64,000 nt of DNA from a virus. The stretch lies in the IMG/VR virus record IMGVR_UViG_3300012928_000001, positions 41,164 through 105,163 of that record. The stretch is one strand, 5' to 3'. Both the position numbers and the translations under genes were made by a program. Every line of letters starts with the position of its first letter. Position 1 is the first letter of the stretch. Of the stretch, positions 21,051 through 53,013 are shown piece by piece. The notes below the pieces were generated by a model, which saw only the letters and a program-made list of their open reading frames with translations, had not been told where the DNA came from and made no database searches.

Positions 21051-21518
21051 ATGCCAGTCGTCGGAGCCCCTCGCGTTTTTGAGGATCGATTCAAGTACCG
21101 CGTCGAGATCGATGGGGTCGCGCACGCGGGATTCAACAAGTGCAGCGCCCTCGAAGCTGAGATCGACAAGATCGAGTACCGGGAGGGCGGGCGGCTCACG
21201 CCGCAAAAGAGTCCCGGGCTCGTCAACATTTCCGACATCACGCTCGAACGCGGCGCCGTCTCGTCGGATTCGGATCTCTACGATTGGTTCACGCAGGTCG
21301 TGGATCTCGTGGCGAACACCGGACAGATCGAGGACACCTTTCGGCGCAACTTCGACATCGTGGTGCTCGACCGGGACAACAACCCGATCAAGCGGTGGCG
21401 GTGCACCGACGCGTGGCCGACCAAGTTCACCGCGGGCGATTGGGACAACGACGCGAGCGAGCACAACATCGAGATGGTCGTGGTCACCATGAACTCGTTC
21501 CGTCGCGTGCCTGTCTGA
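21051..21518 (+). CDS. Tail tube protein
   Basis: The protein has 155 residues. RFKYRVEIDGVAHAGFNKCS, IEYREGGRLTPQKSPGLVN and a C-terminal HNIEMVVVTMNSFRRV match the contractile-phage tube family (T4 gp19-like). It polymerises inside the sheath. It directly follows the sheath gene and is closed by a terminator. Confidence 0.9.
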   Translation: MPVVGAPRVFEDRFKYRVEIDGVAHAGFNKCSALEAEIDKIEYREGGRLTPQKSPGLVNISDITLERGAVSSDSDLYDWFTQVVDLVANTGQIEDTFRRNFDIVVLDRDNNPIKRWRCTDAWPTKFTAGDWDNDASEHNIEMVVVTMNSFRRVPV

Positions 21519-29247: not shown

Positions 29248-30047
29248 TGCCGACCTTCCTCAACCCCGAGCCCGCGCCCGGGACCCAGCTCGCCCGCGTC
29301 GACGCGCTGCACTTCGAGGTCACCGACCCCGCCGGCCTCGCCAGCGTGTTCGTCTGGGTGAGCTTCGCTGACGGCACCACAGAGGTGGTGTGGACCGGCG
29401 ACGGCTTCGGCCCCCGCTACAGCGCGAGCACGAGCGAGGCCATCCCCACGGGGCGCGACTTCACGGTCCGGCGCGTGGGCGGCTGGGCCCTCGCGCCCAT
29501 GCTCCGCGCCACGGCGATCGCCACCGACGGCGGCGCCGCCCAGCTCTCCGTTGACTACGAGCTCGCCGCCGCCGAGACCACCGAGCCCGCGGCCGTGGTC
29601 GGGGCCGAGCTCCCCCCGGTCGCCGCGACCGACCTCGCCGCCGTGGTCGTGGGCCGGGGCCTGCTCGCGCCGCTGCGCCGCGACGGCAAGGGCGACTTCG
29701 CCAACGCGTCGGGGCTCGACGTCCTGCGCTCGAACGTGGGGCTGGTCCTGGGCACCATCGGGAGCTCGAATTACACCCGCGGCGAGCTCCCTTGGCGGCC
29801 CGAGTTCGGCTCGCTGCTCCACCTGCTCCGGCACAAGAACAACGACCAACTCACGCGGTCTCTCGCGCGCCAATACGTCATCGACGCGATCACCTTTTGG
29901 GAGCCGCGCGTGCGCGTGCGTCGGGTCGAGATTGGGCAAGAGGGGGCCCGCCTCTCGCTGCTCGTGCGCTACGATGTGCTTAGTCGTCGGCGCGGGGGAA
30001 TCCTGGCGCGAGGCGAAGAAGTCTCGACCGACATGGAGCTTTTTTGA
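29247..30047 (+). CDS. Baseplate wedge protein gp25-like with N-terminal extension
   Basis: The protein has 266 residues. The C-terminal ~130 residues match the gp25/GPW fold: YTRGELPWRPEFGSLLHLL, then RHKNNDQLTRSLARQYVIDA and FWEPRVRVRRVEI. The N-terminal ~110 residues form an extra beta domain of Ig-like character (FEVTDPAGLASVFVWVSFAD), roughly doubling the usual gp25 length. It starts in a TGATG overlap and precedes the baseplate J gene, the classic order. Confidence 0.8.
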   Translation: MPTFLNPEPAPGTQLARVDALHFEVTDPAGLASVFVWVSFADGTTEVVWTGDGFGPRYSASTSEAIPTGRDFTVRRVGGWALAPMLRATAIATDGGAAQLSVDYELAAAETTEPAAVVGAELPPVAATDLAAVVVGRGLLAPLRRDGKGDFANASGLDVLRSNVGLVLGTIGSSNYTRGELPWRPEFGSLLHLLRHKNNDQLTRSLARQYVIDAITFWEPRVRVRRVEIGQEGARLSLLVRYDVLSRRRGGILARGEEVSTDMELF

Positions 30048-38039: not shown

Positions 38040-38387
38040 ATGCGCCGCCATGGTAAAGACATCGGATTCGCGGGAGCCACCTCGGCCTACTTCGCTTGGG
38101 CCGCGGCGAACCCTGAACTCAACCCCGTTGATCCAGCCATCGCAGGCTTGATCATCGGGGCGGTGTACATCGCCCTAGGGTTGTGGCGCGCGTGGGCAGA
38201 CGACGGAAAGATCACCCCCGATGAAGTGGGCGAGATCTTGGGCATACCACGCGGCCGAGGCCGTCGACCCGACCAAGGTCAAGCCGCCGAGCAGCCCGAC
38301 CGCAGTCAAAAAAGTGCCGGAATAGGGAGTCACACCCCATTGCACCGTTCGGAGAATGACCGCCCCAAGCAAACGCGGAACGGGTAA
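38040..38387 (+). CDS. Small membrane protein, holin-like
   Basis: From ATG 38040 the protein has 115 residues; a TTG at 38016 overlapping the previous stop is an alternative. Two hydrophobic segments are visible, FAGATSAYFAWAAAN (~9-23) and AIAGLIIGAVYIALGLWRAW (~30-50). They are followed by a charged tail. The size and topology fit a small holin. The tail contains an EF-hand-like DDGKITPDE segment. The call rests on position and topology. Confidence 0.5.
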   Translation: MRRHGKDIGFAGATSAYFAWAAANPELNPVDPAIAGLIIGAVYIALGLWRAWADDGKITPDEVGEILGIPRGRGRRPDQGQAAEQPDRSQKSAGIGSHTPLHRSENDRPKQTRNG

Positions 38388-38467
38388 CGCCCATTCCCTC
38401 GACGTCGATCGATCACGCGCGAGCAAGTAGACAGGCCGAACGGGAGAGCCACTCTTCGGGCCGGCAT

Positions 38468-38535
38468 AAAAAGGGGCACGGAGCTAGGCGTCGGGGAGAC
38501 CATCTCCCCTAACATGAACACGTGCCTAGTCCGTG
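38468..38535 (-). terminator. Structured terminator of the tRNA-like RNA unit
   Basis: In the leftward direction CACGGACTAGGC (38535-38524) pairs with GCCTAG-C-TCCGTG (38489-38477), forming a 12-bp stem with one bulged base. The loop holds a second perfect hairpin, GGGGAGA-TGG-TCTCCCC. The stem is followed by CCCC and five T. It lies 3 nt after the third RNA. Confidence 0.7.
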
Positions 38536-38538
38536 TAT

Positions 38539-38698
38539 AGCTCGGGGACGGAGTTGCACCGCCATCCTCCTACGCCAGTAGCGTAGGCCACACGAGGGCA
38601 CACTACCAAGAGCGAACCGGTGCAACATGCTCACACCGACGGGGTTTTTCAGTCCGTCACTCTCAGATCCTCGTGGGGTAGGTACTACACCCCCAAGC
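38539..38698 (-). ncRNA. Expanded tRNA-like RNA 3 (160 nt)
   Basis: The 5' end GCTTGGG (38698-38692) pairs fully, with one G-U, with CCCGAGC (38546-38540). The 3' part has a T-arm GGCGG-TGCAACT-CCGTC, and just before it a perfect anticodon-like arm with stem CCTACG/CGTAGG and 7-nt loop CTACTGG (T at position 33, triplet ACT). Roughly 100 nt of extra sequence lie between the 5' acceptor strand and this arm. No CCA is encoded. It starts 4 nt after RNA 2. Confidence 0.5.
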
Positions 38699-38702
38699 AA
38701 AG

Positions 38703-38901
38703 CCCTGCTGGCAGGATTTGAACCTGCATCGGCATCTCCCGGCTTTACCGACGCGGCACGCGTGGATCTCATCTCCCGGTCAATGTCAGCCAAAGCCATC
38801 AGCCGACTACGGGTTTAGAGGATCATTGCGTACATCATCGGGTAGAGATGACTCCCCTCCGATCGGTATCGGAGTGCACTTCCCAATATGCTCACAGCAG
38901 G
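38703..38901 (-). ncRNA. Expanded tRNA-like RNA 2 (199 nt)
   Basis: CCTGCTG (38901-38895) is perfectly complementary to CAGCAGG (38710-38704). Next comes a D-arm-like hairpin (GCA, 10-nt loop with GGG, TGC), then a 5-bp arm CTCCG/CGGAG with an 8-nt loop. About 115 nt of extra sequence precede a canonical T-arm GCAGG-TTCAAAT-CCTGC. The order acceptor, D-arm, anticodon-like arm, insert, T-arm, acceptor suggests an insert in the variable region. Confidence 0.55.
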
Positions 38902-38904
38902 AAT

Positions 38905-39098
38905 GTCGCCGACGGGGATTCGAACCCACGCTGCCTTGTCTCGACTCGACCGATACGGTGTTCTGACCTGCGCTTACTGATCACGGGGAGCCTTGAATCG
39001 TCCAGCCCCTAGCAGTCGCTCGCGGATCAAATGGTGGCATCGGATAGACAGGATTCCCGTTTCGCGGCGGGCGCACTAGCCATTGTGCCTTCGACGAC
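38905..39098 (-). ncRNA. Expanded tRNA-like RNA 1 (194 nt), 5' end at the inferred transcription start
   Basis: GTCGTCGA (39098-39091) pairs over 8 bp, with one G-U, with TCGGCGAC (38912-38905). The extra G-1:C73-type pair is otherwise known from histidine tRNA. A full D-arm follows: GCAC, loop AATGGCTA, GTGC. Then comes an arm CCCG/CGGG with an 8-nt loop. About 110 nt later is the T-loop TTCGAAT, with three clean stem pairs. The first base is exactly 5 nt after the -10 box, where transcription is inferred to start. Confidence 0.55.
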
Positions 39099-39132: not shown

Positions 39133-39151
39133 AGATCGTCCGAGAAAAATC

Positions 39152-39757
39152 TCAGACTCCGAGGTTGGGCGGGTTGGGCTCGAAGACCACGCCCATCCGC
39201 TCGCGCTCGGTGGTGTCCTTGCCGAGCTCTTCGTAGAAGCGATCGAAGGTCGCTTGATCCTTCGTGAAGAGCGCGTACAGGTGAGGGTGCCGCGGCTGCG
39301 GCTGCAAGATGGGCGAGCCGCCGCCCTCGCGGTCCGGGGCGTAGGACTTGATCCGCGCGCGGAGCAGGCAGACGCTCGCCGCGAACTCGGGCAGGTAGGT
39401 GTGAAACCAGGCCCGGTCCGTGGCCGCCGGGAGCAGGGCCAGCACCGTCGAGCCGCGCTGGGCCTCGATCGACGCTTTCTGAACCCACCGGCTCAGCGGG
39501 TACCACTCGAAGTTGGGCTCTTCCTCGGGCCGGCGCTCGCCGTGCGTCGGGTTGAGCAACACGCGAGGACCCCAGGCCAAGCGCATCCCGTCGTTCTCCG
39601 CGGTGTCGCCAAAGCAGACCCGGTCGGCCTTGAGGAACTGGTCCGGGTGACCGCACGGATCGTCGGTCGGCTGACCGCCGAGGATCCGATAGGCGCGCTC
39701 GCACTCTTCGGGCGGGAGTAGGTAGTCGTATTCGATGATCTTGGGGGGCTTGCTCAT
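39152..39757 (-). CDS. Dam-like N6-adenine methyltransferase family protein, altered catalytic motif
   Basis: The protein has 201 residues from the ATG at 39757, which overlaps the upstream stop (ATGA). The layout resembles phage Dam proteins: CFGDTAENDGMRLAWGPRVL followed by LNPTHGER, where the catalytic D/N-PP-Y/W tetrapeptide is expected, then WFHTYLPEFAASVCLLRARI. The motif reads NPTH, so catalysis is doubtful or altered. It could be an inactive relative. It is the last gene of the leftward operon. Confidence 0.5.
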   Translation of the reverse strand: MSKPPKIIEYDYLLPPEECERAYRILGGQPTDDPCGHPDQFLKADRVCFGDTAENDGMRLAWGPRVLLNPTHGERRPEEEPNFEWYPLSRWVQKASIEAQRGSTVLALLPAATDRAWFHTYLPEFAASVCLLRARIKSYAPDREGGGSPILQPQPRHPHLYALFTKDQATFDRFYEELGKDTTERERMGVVFEPNPPNLGV

Positions 39758-40660: not shown

Positions 40661-41262
40661 TGATCGACCCTCGCGGTCACGGCATCCGCGACGCTGTAGA
40701 TGCTGCCGTCGCCGTCGACGAGCCCGAGCCGGTCTGGGTGTCGCTCGCACAACGTAACGTAGGCCTCGCGCGCGCTCGACATGCGCTCGAAGTTCTCGAA
40801 GCGGTCGGGCTGCGCGTCGTCGCGGCTCAACATGCGATTCAACGCGAGCCCCGGATCGAGATCGATGACCACGGTGAAGTCGGGCCGCGTGTTCTCCGGG
40901 GAGATGTGCGCGTGTGCTGGATTGTCGACGCCGTGGTAGGCGTAGGAGCTCCACACAGAGCGATCGGAGACAAAGACGAGCTCGCCCTCGCCCCCTTGCT
41001 TGTCGCGCGCGTCGGCTTGCCTCGCCATCATCATGCAGTGGATGATTCGGTCGGCCGCGAAAAGCACGTTGAGCTCGACCTCGCTGATCGTCGGCGCGAT
41101 GAGCTGCTCACGGATGAGCTGCCCGATTGGTCCGTCCGTAGGCTCGCGGACCAATCGGGCGTCAAAGCCCGCGCGGGTGAGATGCTCGACCAGCAGCTGG
41201 GTTTGGGTCCCCTTGCCGCATCCGTCGATGCCCTCGACCGCGATGTGCGTGTAGGCCCTCAC
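40639..41262 (-). CDS. tmk: Thymidylate kinase
   Basis: The protein has 207 residues. The P-loop EGIDGCGKGTQTQLL lies at residues ~10-24. VREPTDGPIGQLIREQL matches the dTMP-binding region, SDRSVWSSYAYHGV the DR(Y/S) motif, and VVIDLDPGLALNR follows. The enzyme phosphorylates dTMP to dTDP. It is coupled by an ATGA overlap to the small gene downstream and by overlap to the resolvase. Confidence 0.9.
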   Translation of the reverse strand: MRAYTHIAVEGIDGCGKGTQTQLLVEHLTRAGFDARLVREPTDGPIGQLIREQLIAPTISEVELNVLFAADRIIHCMMMARQADARDKQGGEGELVFVSDRSVWSSYAYHGVDNPAHAHISPENTRPDFTVVIDLDPGLALNRMLSRDDAQPDRFENFERMSSAREAYVTLCERHPDRLGLVDGDGSIYSVADAVTARVDQWLTTGR

Positions 41263-41530: not shown

Positions 41531-42952
41531 CTAGTCGCGGACCCAGATTTTTTCGCCGTAGTTGATCTTGCTGTCGTATCCGCCGCCCTCGACCCAGGGC
41601 TCGCACGCATGGTCGCCGACGAGGACCCAGATCACCTTGAAGCCCTTCGGCGGGAGCGCGGGGCCAGGTCCTCCGCCGTCGGTGAGGACCACGAGCAGGT
41701 TCACGTCGTCGAGCCTCTCGACCGCCTCGAAGATCGGGGTGAAGTAGGTCCCCCCGCCGCCCTTCAAGCTCTTGCCGAGCTCCGTCCAGCTGTGGACTTT
41801 CTTGGCGCCGCCGTGGACCTTGGCGTCGCAGCTCAGGAACTGGATGTCGTCGACCTCTTCGAGGATGCCCTTGCACTCCGCGAGCGCGAGCGCGAGATCG
41901 TCTTGTCCCATGCTCCCCGACGTGTCGACCGCGACCGCGACCTTGGGTTGCATGCCCACCATGGTGGGCAGGATGGGGTGCCCGGGGCCGTAGCCCAGGG
42001 CGCCCTGTTGACGCGAGGGGCGGTGCAGGGAGTAGTCCATCATCCCCGCGATGTGCTGCACCGCGCCGCGCAGGGTCTTGCGGAGCTCATCCTGCCAGCG
42101 GATCTTTGGCGGCTTGATCTTGTCCTCCGCCCAGACCGCCCAGCCCTTGGGGACCGAGCCGCGCCCGTTTTGCTTGGCGTAGCTCTGGACCTGCTCCGCG
42201 GTTTCCTTGCGGAGCTGCTCCAGCTCCGACTCGCTGCGCCCGCCCTCGGTCGGGTTGGCCCCGTTGCCGGCCCCGTCGTTGGCGATGCCCTCGCCGTCTC
42301 CGTCGCCGTTGCCGTTGCCGTCGCCGTTGCCGTCGCCCTGTCCTGGGTTCCCGCTGCCGTCGCTCGTGTAGTTCTCCTCGCCGGGGAGCGGGTTCCCAGC
42401 TCCGCCGCCGCACATGCCCGAGCCCGGGCGCGCGCCCGGGACGGCCTTGGGCGGATTGTCCATGGCGAGCAGCGCGTGATAGTAGACGACTTCCGGCAAT
42501 CCGGTTTCCATGGGTTCCATGGTCTGCGGATGCGTGATCTTGTGGGGCAACATGTCCGACGGTAGCGGCTTCAACCCCGCGGCGATCAAGTCGTCATTGA
42601 TCGCCGCGTCATAGGCCAGATTCGCAATCTGCGGATTCCACCCATTGGCGATCGTCATGGTGACGTGATCTCGAATGATGTGCATCGTCTCGTGCAGCAG
42701 CCCGAACTCGACATCCGCGAGTGACCACTTTTCGATGACATCGGGATCGTAGAGCAAGATCGCCGTGCGCGTGACCGCCATGCCGGCGCCCATCTTGGCC
42801 ATCATGCCGGGCACGGCTCGGGGGATGAGACTGAGCAGCGCCGTGCCGAAGTAGGGGAGTCGACGACGCGCGATGAATCGCGCCGTCATGATTTTCTGAT
42901 CGTGCGACAGGTGTTCGGCGTTGGCGTTGGTGAAGCGGCTTCGACGGCTCAT
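41531..42952 (-). CDS. VWA-domain protein with N-terminal HExxH metallopeptidase-like domain
   Basis: The protein has 473 residues and its start is fixed by a leaderless promoter. HETMH at residues 87-91 is a zinc-peptidase type HExxH in a DUF2201-like N-terminal region. A Gly/Asp/Asn-repeat linker spans ~205-245. The C-terminal ~130 residues are a VWA fold with the MIDAS motif DTSGSMG near 340-347 and VVLTDGGG later. Such proteins pair with MoxR AAA+ ATPases as chaperone systems, and a MoxR-like gene lies two genes upstream. Confidence 0.78.
   Translation of the reverse strand: MSRRSRFTNANAEHLSHDQKIMTARFIARRRLPYFGTALLSLIPRAVPGMMAKMGAGMAVTRTAILLYDPDVIEKWSLADVEFGLLHETMHIIRDHVTMTIANGWNPQIANLAYDAAINDDLIAAGLKPLPSDMLPHKITHPQTMEPMETGLPEVVYYHALLAMDNPPKAVPGARPGSGMCGGGAGNPLPGEENYTSDGSGNPGQGDGNGDGNGNGDGDGEGIANDGAGNGANPTEGGRSESELEQLRKETAEQVQSYAKQNGRGSVPKGWAVWAEDKIKPPKIRWQDELRKTLRGAVQHIAGMMDYSLHRPSRQQGALGYGPGHPILPTMVGMQPKVAVAVDTSGSMGQDDLALALAECKGILEEVDDIQFLSCDAKVHGGAKKVHSWTELGKSLKGGGGTYFTPIFEAVERLDDVNLLVVLTDGGGPGPALPPKGFKVIWVLVGDHACEPWVEGGGYDSKINYGEKIWVRD
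42291..42340. repeat. Short tandem GCCGTT/GCCGTC repeat inside the VWA gene
   Basis: About eight copies of a 6-bp unit encode a Gly-Asp / Gly-Asn linker between the HExxH and VWA domains. It is in frame and could vary in length by slippage. It is low-complexity coding sequence, not an intergenic array. Confidence 0.7.
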
Positions 42953-43857
42953 ACTTTACTGTAGGCCGAAAGCGCCTGTCGGTCACAGAATAGCATCGCA
43001 GTATCTTCGAGTCCTTGATTGAGCGCCGCGATCACGTGCGCGAGATGCTTTTCGGATTTGCGGTGTGCTAGGGTCGCTTTGGACCTACAGAGCACGCACG
43101 CTGTGTCGATTTTGGGTGGAGGCGGATCGTTGACGTGCGACTCGTCGCGTTGGTACACGCTTTTCGCCATGCGCTTGACGCCGTTGTGGTACAGCCGCCA
43201 CCGCGGCATCGGGCCAGGGCAGAACACCGCAACTTGGTAGTTGTGGTCAACTTTGATGATCCACTTGGGCGGGTAGCGAATCCTCGGTGTCGTCGAGAGC
43301 ATGGGCTGCACACCGGGCATGTCCTCGATCGTCACGGGCATACGCTGATCAGTCCCGTTGGTAAGCCGTCGCTGTATGAGCTCCTTAGCCCGCGCTTTGG
43401 TGAGCTGGAACTGACCCCACTGGACGCGCGCCGGTTGCTTGCGTTGCAGGCGCGAGCGTGCACGCCGAATATGTAGTGCCTGTTTGCGCAAGGCCAGGGC
43501 CACGTTCTGCAACATGCCCAATCCAGCGTTGTCTTCGAATACAGCCTTACCGGTGTATGCTGACACCTGGGCCAGCTCAGACACTGGGCCGTCTTCGATG
43601 ATGTGTGCTTTGACTTTCTCGATTATTCCAAAGCACGATTCGTTGAATACCTCGGGCTCTGCGATCGCGCTGAGAGCCCCGATCGAGTCCCCCGAGAACC
43701 GATCATAGCATTCTGAGTACACACCGAGCAGCTGCATCCTCCCGGACACCGTGAAGCGCACGTCGTGCTCACCGTCAGGGTGATAGGGGCAAGGCACCCG
43801 CACCGTAACGGTGAGCTCCGTCTGATCTACTCGCCAACTCTGTTTGCGCTTGGCCAT
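42949..43857 (-). CDS. Hypothetical protein of the MoxR-VWA operon
   Basis: The protein has 302 residues from the ATG at 43857. It starts MAKRKQSWRVDQTELTVTVR, then CPYHPDGEHDVRFTVSGRMQ. A helical Arg/Gln-rich middle (HIRRARSRLQRKQPARVQWG) and a late CVLC pair follow. The open frame runs further upstream, but that part crosses a tRNA-like gene and a terminator, so I exclude it. It ends in an ATGA overlap with the VWA gene. No family was recognised. Confidence 0.6.
   Translation of the reverse strand: MAKRKQSWRVDQTELTVTVRVPCPYHPDGEHDVRFTVSGRMQLLGVYSECYDRFSGDSIGALSAIAEPEVFNESCFGIIEKVKAHIIEDGPVSELAQVSAYTGKAVFEDNAGLGMLQNVALALRKQALHIRRARSRLQRKQPARVQWGQFQLTKARAKELIQRRLTNGTDQRMPVTIEDMPGVQPMLSTTPRIRYPPKWIIKVDHNYQVAVFCPGPMPRWRLYHNGVKRMAKSVYQRDESHVNDPPPPKIDTACVLCRSKATLAHRKSEKHLAHVIAALNQGLEDTAMLFCDRQALSAYSKV
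42958..42986 (-). promoter_or_regulatory. Leaderless-type phage promoter of the VWA gene (GTGACC / 17 bp / TACAGT)
   Basis: On the minus strand the -35 GTGACC is at 42986-42981 and the -10 TACAGT at 42963-42958. AAAGT (5 nt) follows, then the ATG at 42952. It lies inside the end of the upstream gene, so the VWA gene can be transcribed on its own. Confidence 0.8.
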
Positions 43858-43858
43858 A

Positions 43859-43925
43859 TGAGCCGACAGGGAATCGAACCCCGCACGCACGGAAGCCATC
43901 GCCCGTGGTCCCCAGGACTCAGCCC
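43859..43925 (-). tRNA. Compact tRNA-like gene with shortened D-arm
   Basis: The molecule is 67 nt. The acceptor GGGCTGA / TCGGCTC pairs at all seven positions (two G-U). A T-arm CGGGG-TTCGATT-CCCTG is canonical. A 5-bp arm CACGG/CCGTG stands where the anticodon stem should be, with an oversized loop that includes GATGGC. The D-region is reduced to a GTCC-TGG-GGAC hairpin. The anticodon is unclear (GGC if T33 is the one before it). No CCA is encoded. The ATG of the next gene lies 1 nt after the discriminator base. Confidence 0.45.
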
Positions 43926-43951
43926 GAAAAGGTGCCGCCCCGGAGGGCGGC
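43926..43951 (-). terminator. Terminator after the MoxR-like gene
   Basis: On the minus strand GCCGCCC / GGGCGGC forms a 7-bp stem with a short loop, followed by ACCTTTTC. It lies between the MoxR stop and the tRNA-like gene. Confidence 0.6.
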
Positions 43952-43955
43952 GAGC

Positions 43956-45161
43956 TCAGTAGAGGTTCATCAGGCCCGCGGCTTCGAGCATCGGCCGGAG
44001 GGCGCCGACCTGGGTGGCCCCGTGGACGCCGATCAGGCCGCGGTCGATCAGGACCTTGGCGGGATGCAGCGCCGCGTCGCCGGCCGTCTTCGAGACCTCG
44101 CCGATGAGGCGCCACAAGGCCTGCCCTCGCGCGTCGCGGTTGGGGCAGTCGTCGGAGCCCACGAGGGTCGCGCAGCTCCGCATCACCGCTTGGGTGATGT
44201 CGGGGCGATCCTTGCGGTGCTTCCAGGTGACCTTGCCGTCGAGCAGGTCGGTCGTCTTGGGCAAGTCGAGCCTGTTGCGGTAGGCGACGTACTCGCCGTG
44301 CACCTTCGAGCCCACGAAGCTGGCCATGAGCGCGTCGATCTGCGCGGGCGAACACCCGTTCGCGTAGCCGGCGGCCTGGGCCCGGATCGCCATCTCCCAC
44401 GAGCGCGCCGAGGGCCACGCCCCCGCGGCGCTGGGGTCGGTCGCCTTGGGCATGCGGTTGAGCAGCTCGGTGCGGTTCTCGATGAACGCCGTCACGACGC
44501 CCGCCGACTGGGCGTAGGCCTCGGGCCACGCCTTGCGCATGCGGGTGGTCTCGGTGGCGTAGCGCTCGGCCATCTCCTCGGTCGACGGCTTGGGCTGCCC
44601 GGAGCTGCCGCCCGCGATCATGTAGGCCGACCACTGCCGCGCCGACGCCCCGGCGAAGTTGGTGTGTCCGAAGCGGTTGGCGAGGGCGGGCGTCAGATCG
44701 TAGCCGCCGCTCGCCATCTCGGGCGGGTTGGCGTCGAGCAGGAAGCGGACCCCCGGGGGGAGGTGGAACCCGCCGACGACACCTTCGTTCACGACGCGGA
44801 GCAGGGCGCCCTGGGTCGCGGGCGTGCAGGTCGTGACTTCGTTGATCAAGATGATCACGCCCATGCCCGCCTCGACGGCGCGCGCCGCCTCGACGGCCCA
44901 GTCGGGCACGGCGAAGCGCGTGATCATGACGTCTTGACCCATGAGCTTGGTACGCTCCGGGATCGGCAGACCCAGGAAGTCACTGGGCTGCATGAGCGCG
45001 GCGGACAGGGTGATCACGACCATTCCCAGGCTCTCGCCGATCTGGCGGAGGATCCCGGTCTTGCCGACGCCGGGGACGCCCATGGTGAGGATGGGCAGAC
45101 CCTCGCGGTCGTTGAGCCCCTCGGCGAGTAGTGCGGTCTCGATGATTTTGTGACTGAACAT
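43956..45161 (-). CDS. MoxR-type AAA+ ATPase
   Basis: The protein has 401 residues. The Walker A GVPGVGKT is at residues 28-35 and the Walker B-like VIILINEV at ~102-109. The segment TPATQGALLRVVNEG and the Asn-Pro-rich sensor (LLDANPPEMASGGYDL) are typical of MoxR proteins. These ATPases work with VWA partners to insert metals or remodel complexes, and a VWA gene follows in the same direction. Start ATG 45161 has purine-rich SD-like sequences upstream. Confidence 0.8.
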   Translation of the reverse strand: MFSHKIIETALLAEGLNDREGLPILTMGVPGVGKTGILRQIGESLGMVVITLSAALMQPSDFLGLPIPERTKLMGQDVMITRFAVPDWAVEAARAVEAGMGVIILINEVTTCTPATQGALLRVVNEGVVGGFHLPPGVRFLLDANPPEMASGGYDLTPALANRFGHTNFAGASARQWSAYMIAGGSSGQPKPSTEEMAERYATETTRMRKAWPEAYAQSAGVVTAFIENRTELLNRMPKATDPSAAGAWPSARSWEMAIRAQAAGYANGCSPAQIDALMASFVGSKVHGEYVAYRNRLDLPKTTDLLDGKVTWKHRKDRPDITQAVMRSCATLVGSDDCPNRDARGQALWRLIGEVSKTAGDAALHPAKVLIDRGLIGVHGATQVGALRPMLEAAGLMNLY

Positions 45162-45965: not shown

Positions 45966-46036
45966 GACCGCGTACGCCAACGGTAGAGCGCAGAACTAGC
46001 TAGTCTGGGTTGCGGGTTCGAATCCCGCCGCGGATC
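45966..46036 (+). tRNA. tRNA-like gene, about 71 nt, anticodon probably AGC
   Basis: The T-arm GCGGG-TTCGAAT-CCCGC and the D-arm (CGC, loop CAACGGTAGA, GCG) are canonical. An anticodon-type arm CAGAA/GTCTG encloses the loop CTAGCTA. The acceptor GACCGCG / CGCGGAT has five pairs, one G-U and one mismatch. Position 26 and part of the variable loop appear missing, and position 37 is T. The anticodon AGC (Ala) is a literal reading and is uncertain. A terminator follows. Confidence 0.5.
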
Positions 46037-51659: not shown

Positions 51660-53013
51660 CGATCAAGTGATTGAGCCCTACGGGCTGCACGCCATGTTTG
51701 AGCGTGACTTGCTGTACACGCTCGCAAACGACACCGCGGCCTATGGTCGCGTAGGTGAGTACATCGAGCCAGAAGCGTTCTCTGATCCGCTGTCGCCAAT
51801 CGTCTGCAAGGTCATTGCGCAGTGCATCGCATCGACCGGCCGACCCCCAGGGGGGATGTCCGCGTTCCTGCAAGAGCTGGAGAACCTCGCAGCATCCGGC
51901 GGGATCAGCTTCGATCAGCGCGCGGCCGTTGCAGCCAACATGGTCGCGGCAAGTCAGACGGGATTCGACCCCGAAACCGTCGTGGCTCAGTTCGGCGCGG
52001 TGATCAAGAGTCGTCGGAACCGCACGGCGATTGAGAGCGCCATCCTGGCGCACAGCAATCCCGACGCGCTCGTCGAGATCGGGCAACAGCTACAAAACAA
52101 CGCGCAGATCGGCGTGGTCGACGTGAGCGTGGGCGATGACTTGTCCTCGCTGCAAGCTGACCTCGAAGAGACCGCCAACGTGCCGCGGCTGTCCTTTGGC
52201 TGCCCGGAGCTCGACGCGGCCACGGGCGGCGGACGGGCCCAAGGCGAGTTCGGTTTTGTGCTCGGTCCGCCGAAGACGGGCAAGTCCGCGTGGCTGGTCC
52301 AGGATGCGGTTACGGCCGTGCGCCAAGGTCTGAACACGGTTGTGATCACACTGGAGTTGCCAAGCGTGCGATGGCGTGCCCGATTCTTGGCGGGCATCAC
52401 TGCTGTGCCCACTAACGCGATTATCAAACACCCGAAGACCACAATCGCGTGGAAGGTCTTCGACGATATGAAAGGGATGGCGCAAGACACTGGGCTACCC
52501 TTCGGCCGATTCCAGATCAAGAAAATGCCGGCCGGCTCTACCACGCTGCTCGATGTCCTCTCCTACGTTTCGCGTGTCGAGCAACATTGGGGCGAGCAAG
52601 CCGACGTCGTGGTCATCGATTACATGGACAAGATGCGCGGCCAAGACACGACGAAAGGCATGTACGAGCAAATGCTCGAAGTCTATGAGGGTGGTCGCCT
52701 CTGGGCCGAGCTGAATGGTCGATGGATGTCGACTGCGAGCCAGACAAAGGGGCACGTGAAAGAGGGTGATATGCCCAACTTGGCCGACTGCGCTGATTCG
52801 CAAAACAAGGTGCGCGTAACTGACTGGATGCTCGGCATCCAAAAGATGCTGGACCCCACGCTAATCGGGCAAGTCTCGCTCCGCCTGATCGCGGGTCGCA
52901 ACTACGAAGAGACCAACGTGCTCGGCCCGTATAAGGGCGGTGCAGAGTTTGGCGTGTTCCTGCACGGGGTTGCCGGCAATAACGCACTCATCAACGTGAT
53001 CCAGAAAGTATGA
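51652..53013 (+). CDS. DnaB-like replicative helicase
   Basis: The GTG start overlaps the previous stop. The protein has 453 residues. Walker A GPPKTGKSA lies at ~204-212, and VVVIDYMDKMRG at ~320-331 is Walker B. The N-terminal ~150 residues are the helical domain. It belongs to the RecA-fold replicative helicases that unwind ahead of the fork. The primase gene follows in an ATGA overlap. Confidence 0.85.
   Translation: MSDDQVIEPYGLHAMFERDLLYTLANDTAAYGRVGEYIEPEAFSDPLSPIVCKVIAQCIASTGRPPGGMSAFLQELENLAASGGISFDQRAAVAANMVAASQTGFDPETVVAQFGAVIKSRRNRTAIESAILAHSNPDALVEIGQQLQNNAQIGVVDVSVGDDLSSLQADLEETANVPRLSFGCPELDAATGGGRAQGEFGFVLGPPKTGKSAWLVQDAVTAVRQGLNTVVITLELPSVRWRARFLAGITAVPTNAIIKHPKTTIAWKVFDDMKGMAQDTGLPFGRFQIKKMPAGSTTLLDVLSYVSRVEQHWGEQADVVVIDYMDKMRGQDTTKGMYEQMLEVYEGGRLWAELNGRWMSTASQTKGHVKEGDMPNLADCADSQNKVRVTDWMLGIQKMLDPTLIGQVSLRLIAGRNYEETNVLGPYKGGAEFGVFLHGVAGNNALINVIQKV

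Follow-up and report, generated by a model that had tools for sequence, protein, structure and literature searches.

Does the non-coding stretch at ~38.1-39.2 kb of this phage window encode transfer RNAs disguised by extra sequence, or RNAs of tRNA shape that serve some other purpose? The window is the whole 64,000-nt stretch of DNA that was analysed, and runs from position 41164 to 105163 of a virus record of 105,163 bases (G000), the two ends of which have a repeat of ~123 bases in common. By its predicted proteins, with PHROGs matches to sheath, tape measure, baseplate, and portal proteins, the phage is an uncultivated, contractile-tailed 105-kb myophage. A previous reading of the DNA from its sequence alone (the sequence-only reading) proposed that three expanded tRNA-like RNAs lie in tandem on a non-coding transcript at this locus, and offered intron-bearing tRNAs, tRNAs with giant variable arms, or a new class of tRNA-like RNA as explanations. 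No other stretch of the phage genome runs as long without codon periodicity.

Architecture of the three RNAs

The assignment of the minus-strand segments 39098-38904, 38901-38703, and 38698-38539 as three tandem tRNA-like RNAs (RNA1, RNA2, and RNA3) holds, and they are very probably expanded tRNA-like RNAs belonging to a dedicated unit. Their lengths are ~195, 199, and 160 nt, two to three times that of a tRNA. The acceptor pairs and T-loops are found in all three where the sequence-only reading had placed them, and so is the tight tiling that it described, with spacers of TT (RNA1/RNA2) and CTTT (RNA2/RNA3) following one discriminator base. CCA is not encoded in any of the array RNAs.

In RNA1, the acceptor strands GTCGTCGA (39098-39091) and TCGGCGAC (38912-38905) form 8 bp including one G-U pair. 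A D-arm, GCAC-AATGGCTA-GTGC (39088-39073), is followed by an anticodon-position hairpin, CCCG-CCGCGAAA-CGGG (39071-39056), and by an insert of 125 nt (39055-38931) that separates this hairpin from the T-arm (38930-38913). The T-arm has the T-loop TTCGAAT and a T-stem with one bulged base, and the discriminator is an A at position 38904. RNA2 is built alike, with seven Watson-Crick pairs in the acceptor CCTGCTG/CAGCAGG (38901-38895/38710-38704), the D-arm GCAT-ATTGGGAA-GTGC (38891-38876), the anticodon-position hairpin CTCCG-ATACCGAT-CGGAG (38874-38857), an insert of 129 nt in the variable-arm position (38856-38728), a perfect T-arm GCAGG-TTCAAAT-CCTGC (38727-38711), and G as discriminator (38703). 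Both RNAs thus have the acceptor, the T-loop of TTCRANY type, and the GG in the D-loop that belong to a tRNA, and each folds alone and unconstrained into a cloverleaf. RNA2 is more stable than shuffled sequence (z -3.5); the folding energy of RNA1 is no better than that of shuffles (z 0.2).

The D-arm and anticodon-like hairpins that had been claimed for RNA1 and RNA2 are both in place, but the latter are not canonical anticodon arms. A 5-bp anticodon stem with a 7-nt loop and U33 is absent from both RNAs; the loop at this position in RNA1, CCGCGAAA, has 8 nt and no U33, and the 8-nt loop of RNA2, AUACCGAU, can be closed to give 7 bp and a tetraloop. The position of the inserts fits a giant variable arm in the predicted cloverleaves of RNA1 and RNA2. 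This part of the sequence-only reading can be retained for these two RNAs, and for a 205-nt RNA in a related phage (see below), but not for RNA3, where the expansion is on the D side.

RNA3 has the acceptor GCTTGGG/CCCGAGC (38698-38692/38546-38540) with one G-U pair, extra sequence of ~105 nt (38691-38587) closed by CACGAGG/CCTCGTG, an anticodon-like arm (38586-38570), the T-arm GGCGG-TGCAACT-CCGTC (38563-38547), and T as discriminator (38539). Its layout differs from that of RNA1 and RNA2 in that the expansion precedes the anticodon-like arm. That arm, CTACG-CTACTGG-CGTAG, is uninterrupted and is the clean 5-bp arm with a 7-nt loop noted before; with its CUACUGG loop, RNA3 is alone in the array in having a 7-nt anticodon-like loop. 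The roughly 100 nt of extra sequence noted in each unit is present in all three. RNA3 was found by a scan for acceptor and T-arm, which gives 0.9 hits per shuffled genome, and it is more stable than shuffles (z -3.0). It has the acceptor and T-arm, and lacks a GG-containing D-arm. Because of the acceptor, the T-arm, the anticodon-like arm, and a start 4 nt after RNA2, we regard RNA3 as a probable rather than proven tRNA-like unit. At a lowered threshold, ARAGORN proposes a 75-nt tRNA-Ser(ACT) as an alternative in the 3' half of RNA3, with two acceptor mismatches.

Comparison with random sequence and true tRNAs

The descriptor used for these RNAs consists of a 7-bp acceptor, a 2-3-nt linker, a D-stem with a GG loop, and a T-stem with a tRNA-type T-loop, within 64-330 nt. 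RNA1 and RNA2 were already known when it was drawn up, a bulged T-stem being permitted for RNA1, and it was then run on sequence that had played no part in its design; its strength therefore lies in the comparison with random and real sequence, and not in the choice of features. RNA1 scores 32.0 and RNA2 33.5, and true tRNAs from related phages, Streptomyces phage BRock, and bacterial contigs mostly score 30-35.5. Random sequence of matching trinucleotide composition (134 Mb) yields 15 hits of at least 28, 5 of at least 29, and none of 30 or higher. Chance pairing, about which the sequence-only reading had been cautious, is excluded as the origin of RNA1 and RNA2. The anticodon-position hairpin stands outside the descriptor criteria; it scores 8-9.5 in all four of the RNAs that exceed normal tRNA length, namely RNA1, RNA2, and one RNA from each of two relatives, and random positions each score at least 8 in 3% of cases. 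Rfam 15 gives no tRNA-like match to the array of the window, even at E 10.

Irregular tRNA-like genes are also found elsewhere in the phage. A 66-nt RNA on the minus strand (43860-43925), in the gap that separates the AAA ATPase gene from the following ORF, has a shortened D-arm and a long anticodon-position loop, and matches the Rfam family mascRNA-menRNA, which is tRNA-like, with 32.8 bits (E 3e-4), below the gathering score of 42.5. On the plus strand, ARAGORN finds a weak tRNA-Ala(AGC)-like gene (45966-46036) that has 25.0 bits with the Rfam tRNA model, below the gathering score of 29, and like the array RNAs does not encode CCA.

Predicted transcription unit and genomic setting

A 32-base motif with the consensus CTGTGACTCGCA-N8-CGGCCTACAGTA occurs in ~29 copies in the 105-kb phage, at scores of 17.6-47.0 against 12.7 or less in random sequence. 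Since the start codon mostly lies 4-5 nt past the end of the motif, the copies resemble promoters that drive leaderless messages. Nearly all of them are outside the structural genes, and an assignment to an early class would be a guess from gene position. The motif scan places copies at 39134 (-), 42988 (-), 45236 (-), 1306 (+), 57734 (+), 60122 (+), and 63492 (+), and in the left part of the record. On the minus strand, the copy CTGTGACTC-N9-TTCGGGCTACGGTA spans 39134-39103, and only GTTT separates its end from position 39098, the first base of RNA1. Judged from the promoter pattern, this base is the predicted transcription start, so the match between the 5' end of RNA1 and the start expected from the 29-copy promoter stands. 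The terminator-like hairpin that a terminator scan proposed at 39126-39105 sits inside the promoter.

Downstream of RNA3, sequence and fold point to an intrinsic terminator (38535-38468, minus strand), in which a long hairpin CACGGACTAGGC...GCCTAGCTCCGTG precedes the T-run CCCCTTTTT. From the promoter pattern and this terminator, we infer a unit of ~620-630 nt that starts at RNA1. Beyond this first terminator, a doubtful fourth unit (38322-38468, minus strand) has the pairing TGCCGG.../CCGGCA, a T-arm-like element TGGGG-TGTGACT-CCCTA, and a TTTTTT end. Its fold is no better than that of shuffles (z -0.2), and it is more likely a second terminator than a fourth RNA.

The array lies downstream of a Dam-like gene (39152-39757, minus strand) on the same strand. 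An AAA ATPase and a VWA/DUF2201 metallopeptidase-like protein, encoded near each other at 41531-45161 (-), are kept in most related phages. The DNA polymerase A of the phage (55043-57739, plus strand) has an N-terminal uracil-DNA-glycosylase-like domain within the same protein, a part that is also aligned by relatives. Outside the window, at record positions 38210-38345 and 29659-29800, transcripts predicted from promoters of the same class have no start codon at the usual spacing, and the former ends in a terminator-like hairpin; these are possibly additional small RNAs of the phage.

Occurrence in related phages

A search of cultured phages (50,697 phage records) found no DNA similar to the array segment. 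Searches with three proteins of the phage (DNA polymerase, AAA ATPase, and VWA protein) brought together ~45 records of related phages, along with another 70 loci. The Dam-like protein alone or the VWA protein alone gave no related loci, a search with a two-sequence Dam alignment returned only the relative G016, and a DNA polymerase search of genome contigs returned only cellular-type polymerases. A 24-nt match in two relatives was discarded, as it has no tRNA-like context there.

A truly comparable RNA of ~200 nt is present in only one of the ~45 related records, G032 (IMGVR_UViG_3300031873_000012; positions 21216-21420, minus strand). This 205-nt RNA scores 33.0 and has the same build as RNA1 and RNA2, with an insert of 139 nt; unlike in a tRNA, its acceptor helix extends to 11 bp. 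In the predicted folds of RNA1, RNA2, and the G032 RNA, a helix lying ~3 nt ahead of the T-arm closes the insert in every case. The insert sequences have no mutual resemblance and no conservation, and when taken alone they fold no better than shuffled sequence, with the RNA2 insert as a mild exception (z -1.9). MAFFT alignments of the three RNAs misplace the acceptor, and a covariance model from RNA1 and RNA2 with an N-filled insert was set aside because it did not recover the sequences it was built from. A covariation count on these RNAs would be circular, since the search itself had selected for acceptor, D, and T pairing.

At this locus, the record G046 is near-identical to G032 and is without a 223-nt stretch that holds the whole 205-nt RNA. 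This clean absence means that RNAs of this build are gained or lost as a unit. A one-spacer CRISPR-like mini-array directly adjoins the presence/absence site in both phages (L241 1101-1210 in G032 and L319 4070-4182 in G046); the spacers differ, and no spacer target was found among the sequences of this analysis.

G016 shares synteny with the window along most of its length. It encodes an irregular tRNA of 103 nt in which the anticodon arm is lengthened (43180-43282, equal to L184 3180-3282; score 30.5). This RNA occupies the interval equivalent to that of the window array, downstream of the homologous Dam-like gene, from which a single small gene separates it. A second irregular tRNA-like RNA is found in the same record (102611-102691, minus strand), and ARAGORN calls neither of the two. 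ARAGORN also misses a tRNA-Tyr-like gene with a GTA loop and a long variable arm in G011 (52146-52227, plus strand).

Proposed function and alternative explanations

Our best reading, to which we assign a probability of about 0.5, is that the array RNAs are non-decoding tRNA mimics, made from a dedicated unit, that engage or sequester host tRNA-binding factors, probably as a decoy or a handle. Transcription from the promoter to the terminator would give the three tandem RNAs, RNA1 beginning at the transcription start; the release of RNA2 and RNA3 would fall to the RNase P and 3' tRNA-processing enzymes of the host, which would act on the acceptor/T-arm helices, and the host would also add CCA. 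Because RNA1 and RNA2 are without a normal anticodon loop, they are not expected to decode. The RNAs may engage or sequester processing or modification enzymes, EF-Tu, or a tRNA-targeting defence, and the long arm may serve as a steric block or as a payload. A mimic or decoy role as such is put forward tentatively, at less than even odds, and an anticodon-less decoy could not sponge anticodon nucleases. A wider possibility, which we also hold to be rather doubtful, is a sporadic new class of phage RNA: non-decoding tRNA mimics with an extra arm of 100-140 nt, transcribed as tandem units under a phage promoter, which come and go as discrete units in accessory hotspots and act in conflicts between phage and host or between phages by occupying tRNA-handling or tRNA-targeting proteins.

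It is unlikely that the tRNA-like ends are processing signals only, for RNase P and 3' enzymes, and that the inserts, protected by these caps, are the working parts, for instance as regulatory RNAs that bind proteins or act by antisense. The acceptor and T-arm are indeed the best-kept parts, the inserts are wholly different in sequence and similar in length, and the tandem units have gaps of only 2-4 nt plus the discriminator base. Against this, the GG D-arm and the anticodon-position hairpin are kept and are not strictly needed by RNase P, and the inserts have neither a significant fold nor a match elsewhere.

Even less can be said for reading the whole unit as a single ornate RNA of ~620 nt, comparable to the phage RNAs GOLLD and ROOL, in which the tRNA-like modules would be structural T-loop elements. 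An own promoter and terminator, the size, the phage location, and a whole-RNA fold slightly better than shuffled (z -1.6) would agree with such an RNA. On the other hand, the units fold alone as cloverleaves with their own acceptor helices, a lone single unit exists in another phage, and no Rfam match is seen even at E 10; in Rfam 15 this includes the GOLLD and ROOL family models.

One of the original suggestions, here taken as small spliced introns that interrupt otherwise decoding tRNAs, is very improbable. The inserts are of intron size, and with strongly lowered thresholds ARAGORN can force intron-bearing cloverleaves on RNA2; the anticodon assignments obtained in this way are mutually contradictory and were set aside. 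At default thresholds ARAGORN, with introns allowed, has no hit, and the Rfam group I and group II models find nothing in the array. A positive control, a 312-nt Skermanella tRNA found with the same descriptor, was recognised, as ARAGORN called it intron-bearing and its insert matches Rfam group I. To our knowledge, inserts of ~125 nt are smaller than any known self-splicing intron, which also speaks against this origin. Furthermore, RNA1 has no 3' anticodon strand near the T-arm, and the anticodon arm of RNA3 is uninterrupted, so that the insert positions differ among the units.

The idea that an ordinary phage tRNA array has taken up insertions, is decaying, and no longer functions can largely be dismissed, for although the other tRNA-like genes of the phage are irregular too and the G032/G046 pair indicates gain or loss, the helices are intact, the promoter placement is exact, and decay in the anticodon region only, with acceptor, D, and T elements kept side by side in RNA1 and RNA2, would be odd.

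Because standard tRNA finders and Rfam miss such RNAs, despite tRNA-like elements that score like those of true tRNAs, tRNA mimicry in phage genomes may so far have gone partly unrecorded, and the descriptor is applicable to any phage collection. If the RNAs bind host tRNA factors and do not decode, they would provide ready-made probes of the host protein targeted in infection, and would be a natural example of a tRNA elbow that accommodates a 130-nt arm.

Comparison with known systems

The predicted folds of RNA1 and RNA2 resemble class II tRNAs (Leu, Ser, Tyr) and tRNA-Sec in being five-stem cloverleaves with an arm between the anticodon and T stems. Natural variable arms reach about 25 nt, and the arms of RNA1 and RNA2 are far outside the class in length; unlike class II tRNAs, these RNAs also lack a normal 7-nt anticodon loop. 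In tmRNA, tRNA-like ends similarly surround a long internal domain. A tmRNA has no D-stem, is 250-400 nt long, and contains a tag ORF and pseudoknots; both ARAGORN and Rfam are negative for tmRNA on the array. The bacterial Y RNA YrlA is likewise a non-decoding RNA with a tRNA elbow, but its tRNA mimic is internal and the RNA ends in a Ro-binding stem, whereas the ends of the array RNAs form an acceptor. No TROVE/Ro60 gene was detected in the phage, and a control genome gave a positive result. The mascRNA-menRNA family (MALAT1/MEN beta) comprises non-decoding tRNA-like RNAs that are compact and eukaryotic, whereas RNA1-RNA3 are expanded and have no match to the model, which the 66-nt RNA of the phage matches below threshold. 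The phage tRNAs that evade retrons and other defences are, like the array, phage-encoded and involved in host conflict, but they are ordinary tRNAs and not expanded (PMC11555353).

The closest published precedent, compared here by description, is the set of irregular/allo-tRNA polycistrons from soil metatranscriptomes (Mukai et al. 2017; reviewed in PMC7609411). These also consist of irregular tRNA-like RNAs in tandem with an extra stem, and the array likewise has five-stem layouts in tandem. The irregular tRNAs were not charged by E. coli enzymes in vitro, and a link to mobile or toxin-antitoxin elements has been proposed (PMC7609411). They have an extra loop between the acceptor and the D-arm and 8/4 acceptor branches; the review puts the variable arms of natural class II tRNAs at 10 nt or more (PMC7609411). 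The array differs in its added arm of 105-129 nt, in the location of this arm between the anticodon place and the T-arm in RNA1 and RNA2, and in its phage promoter.
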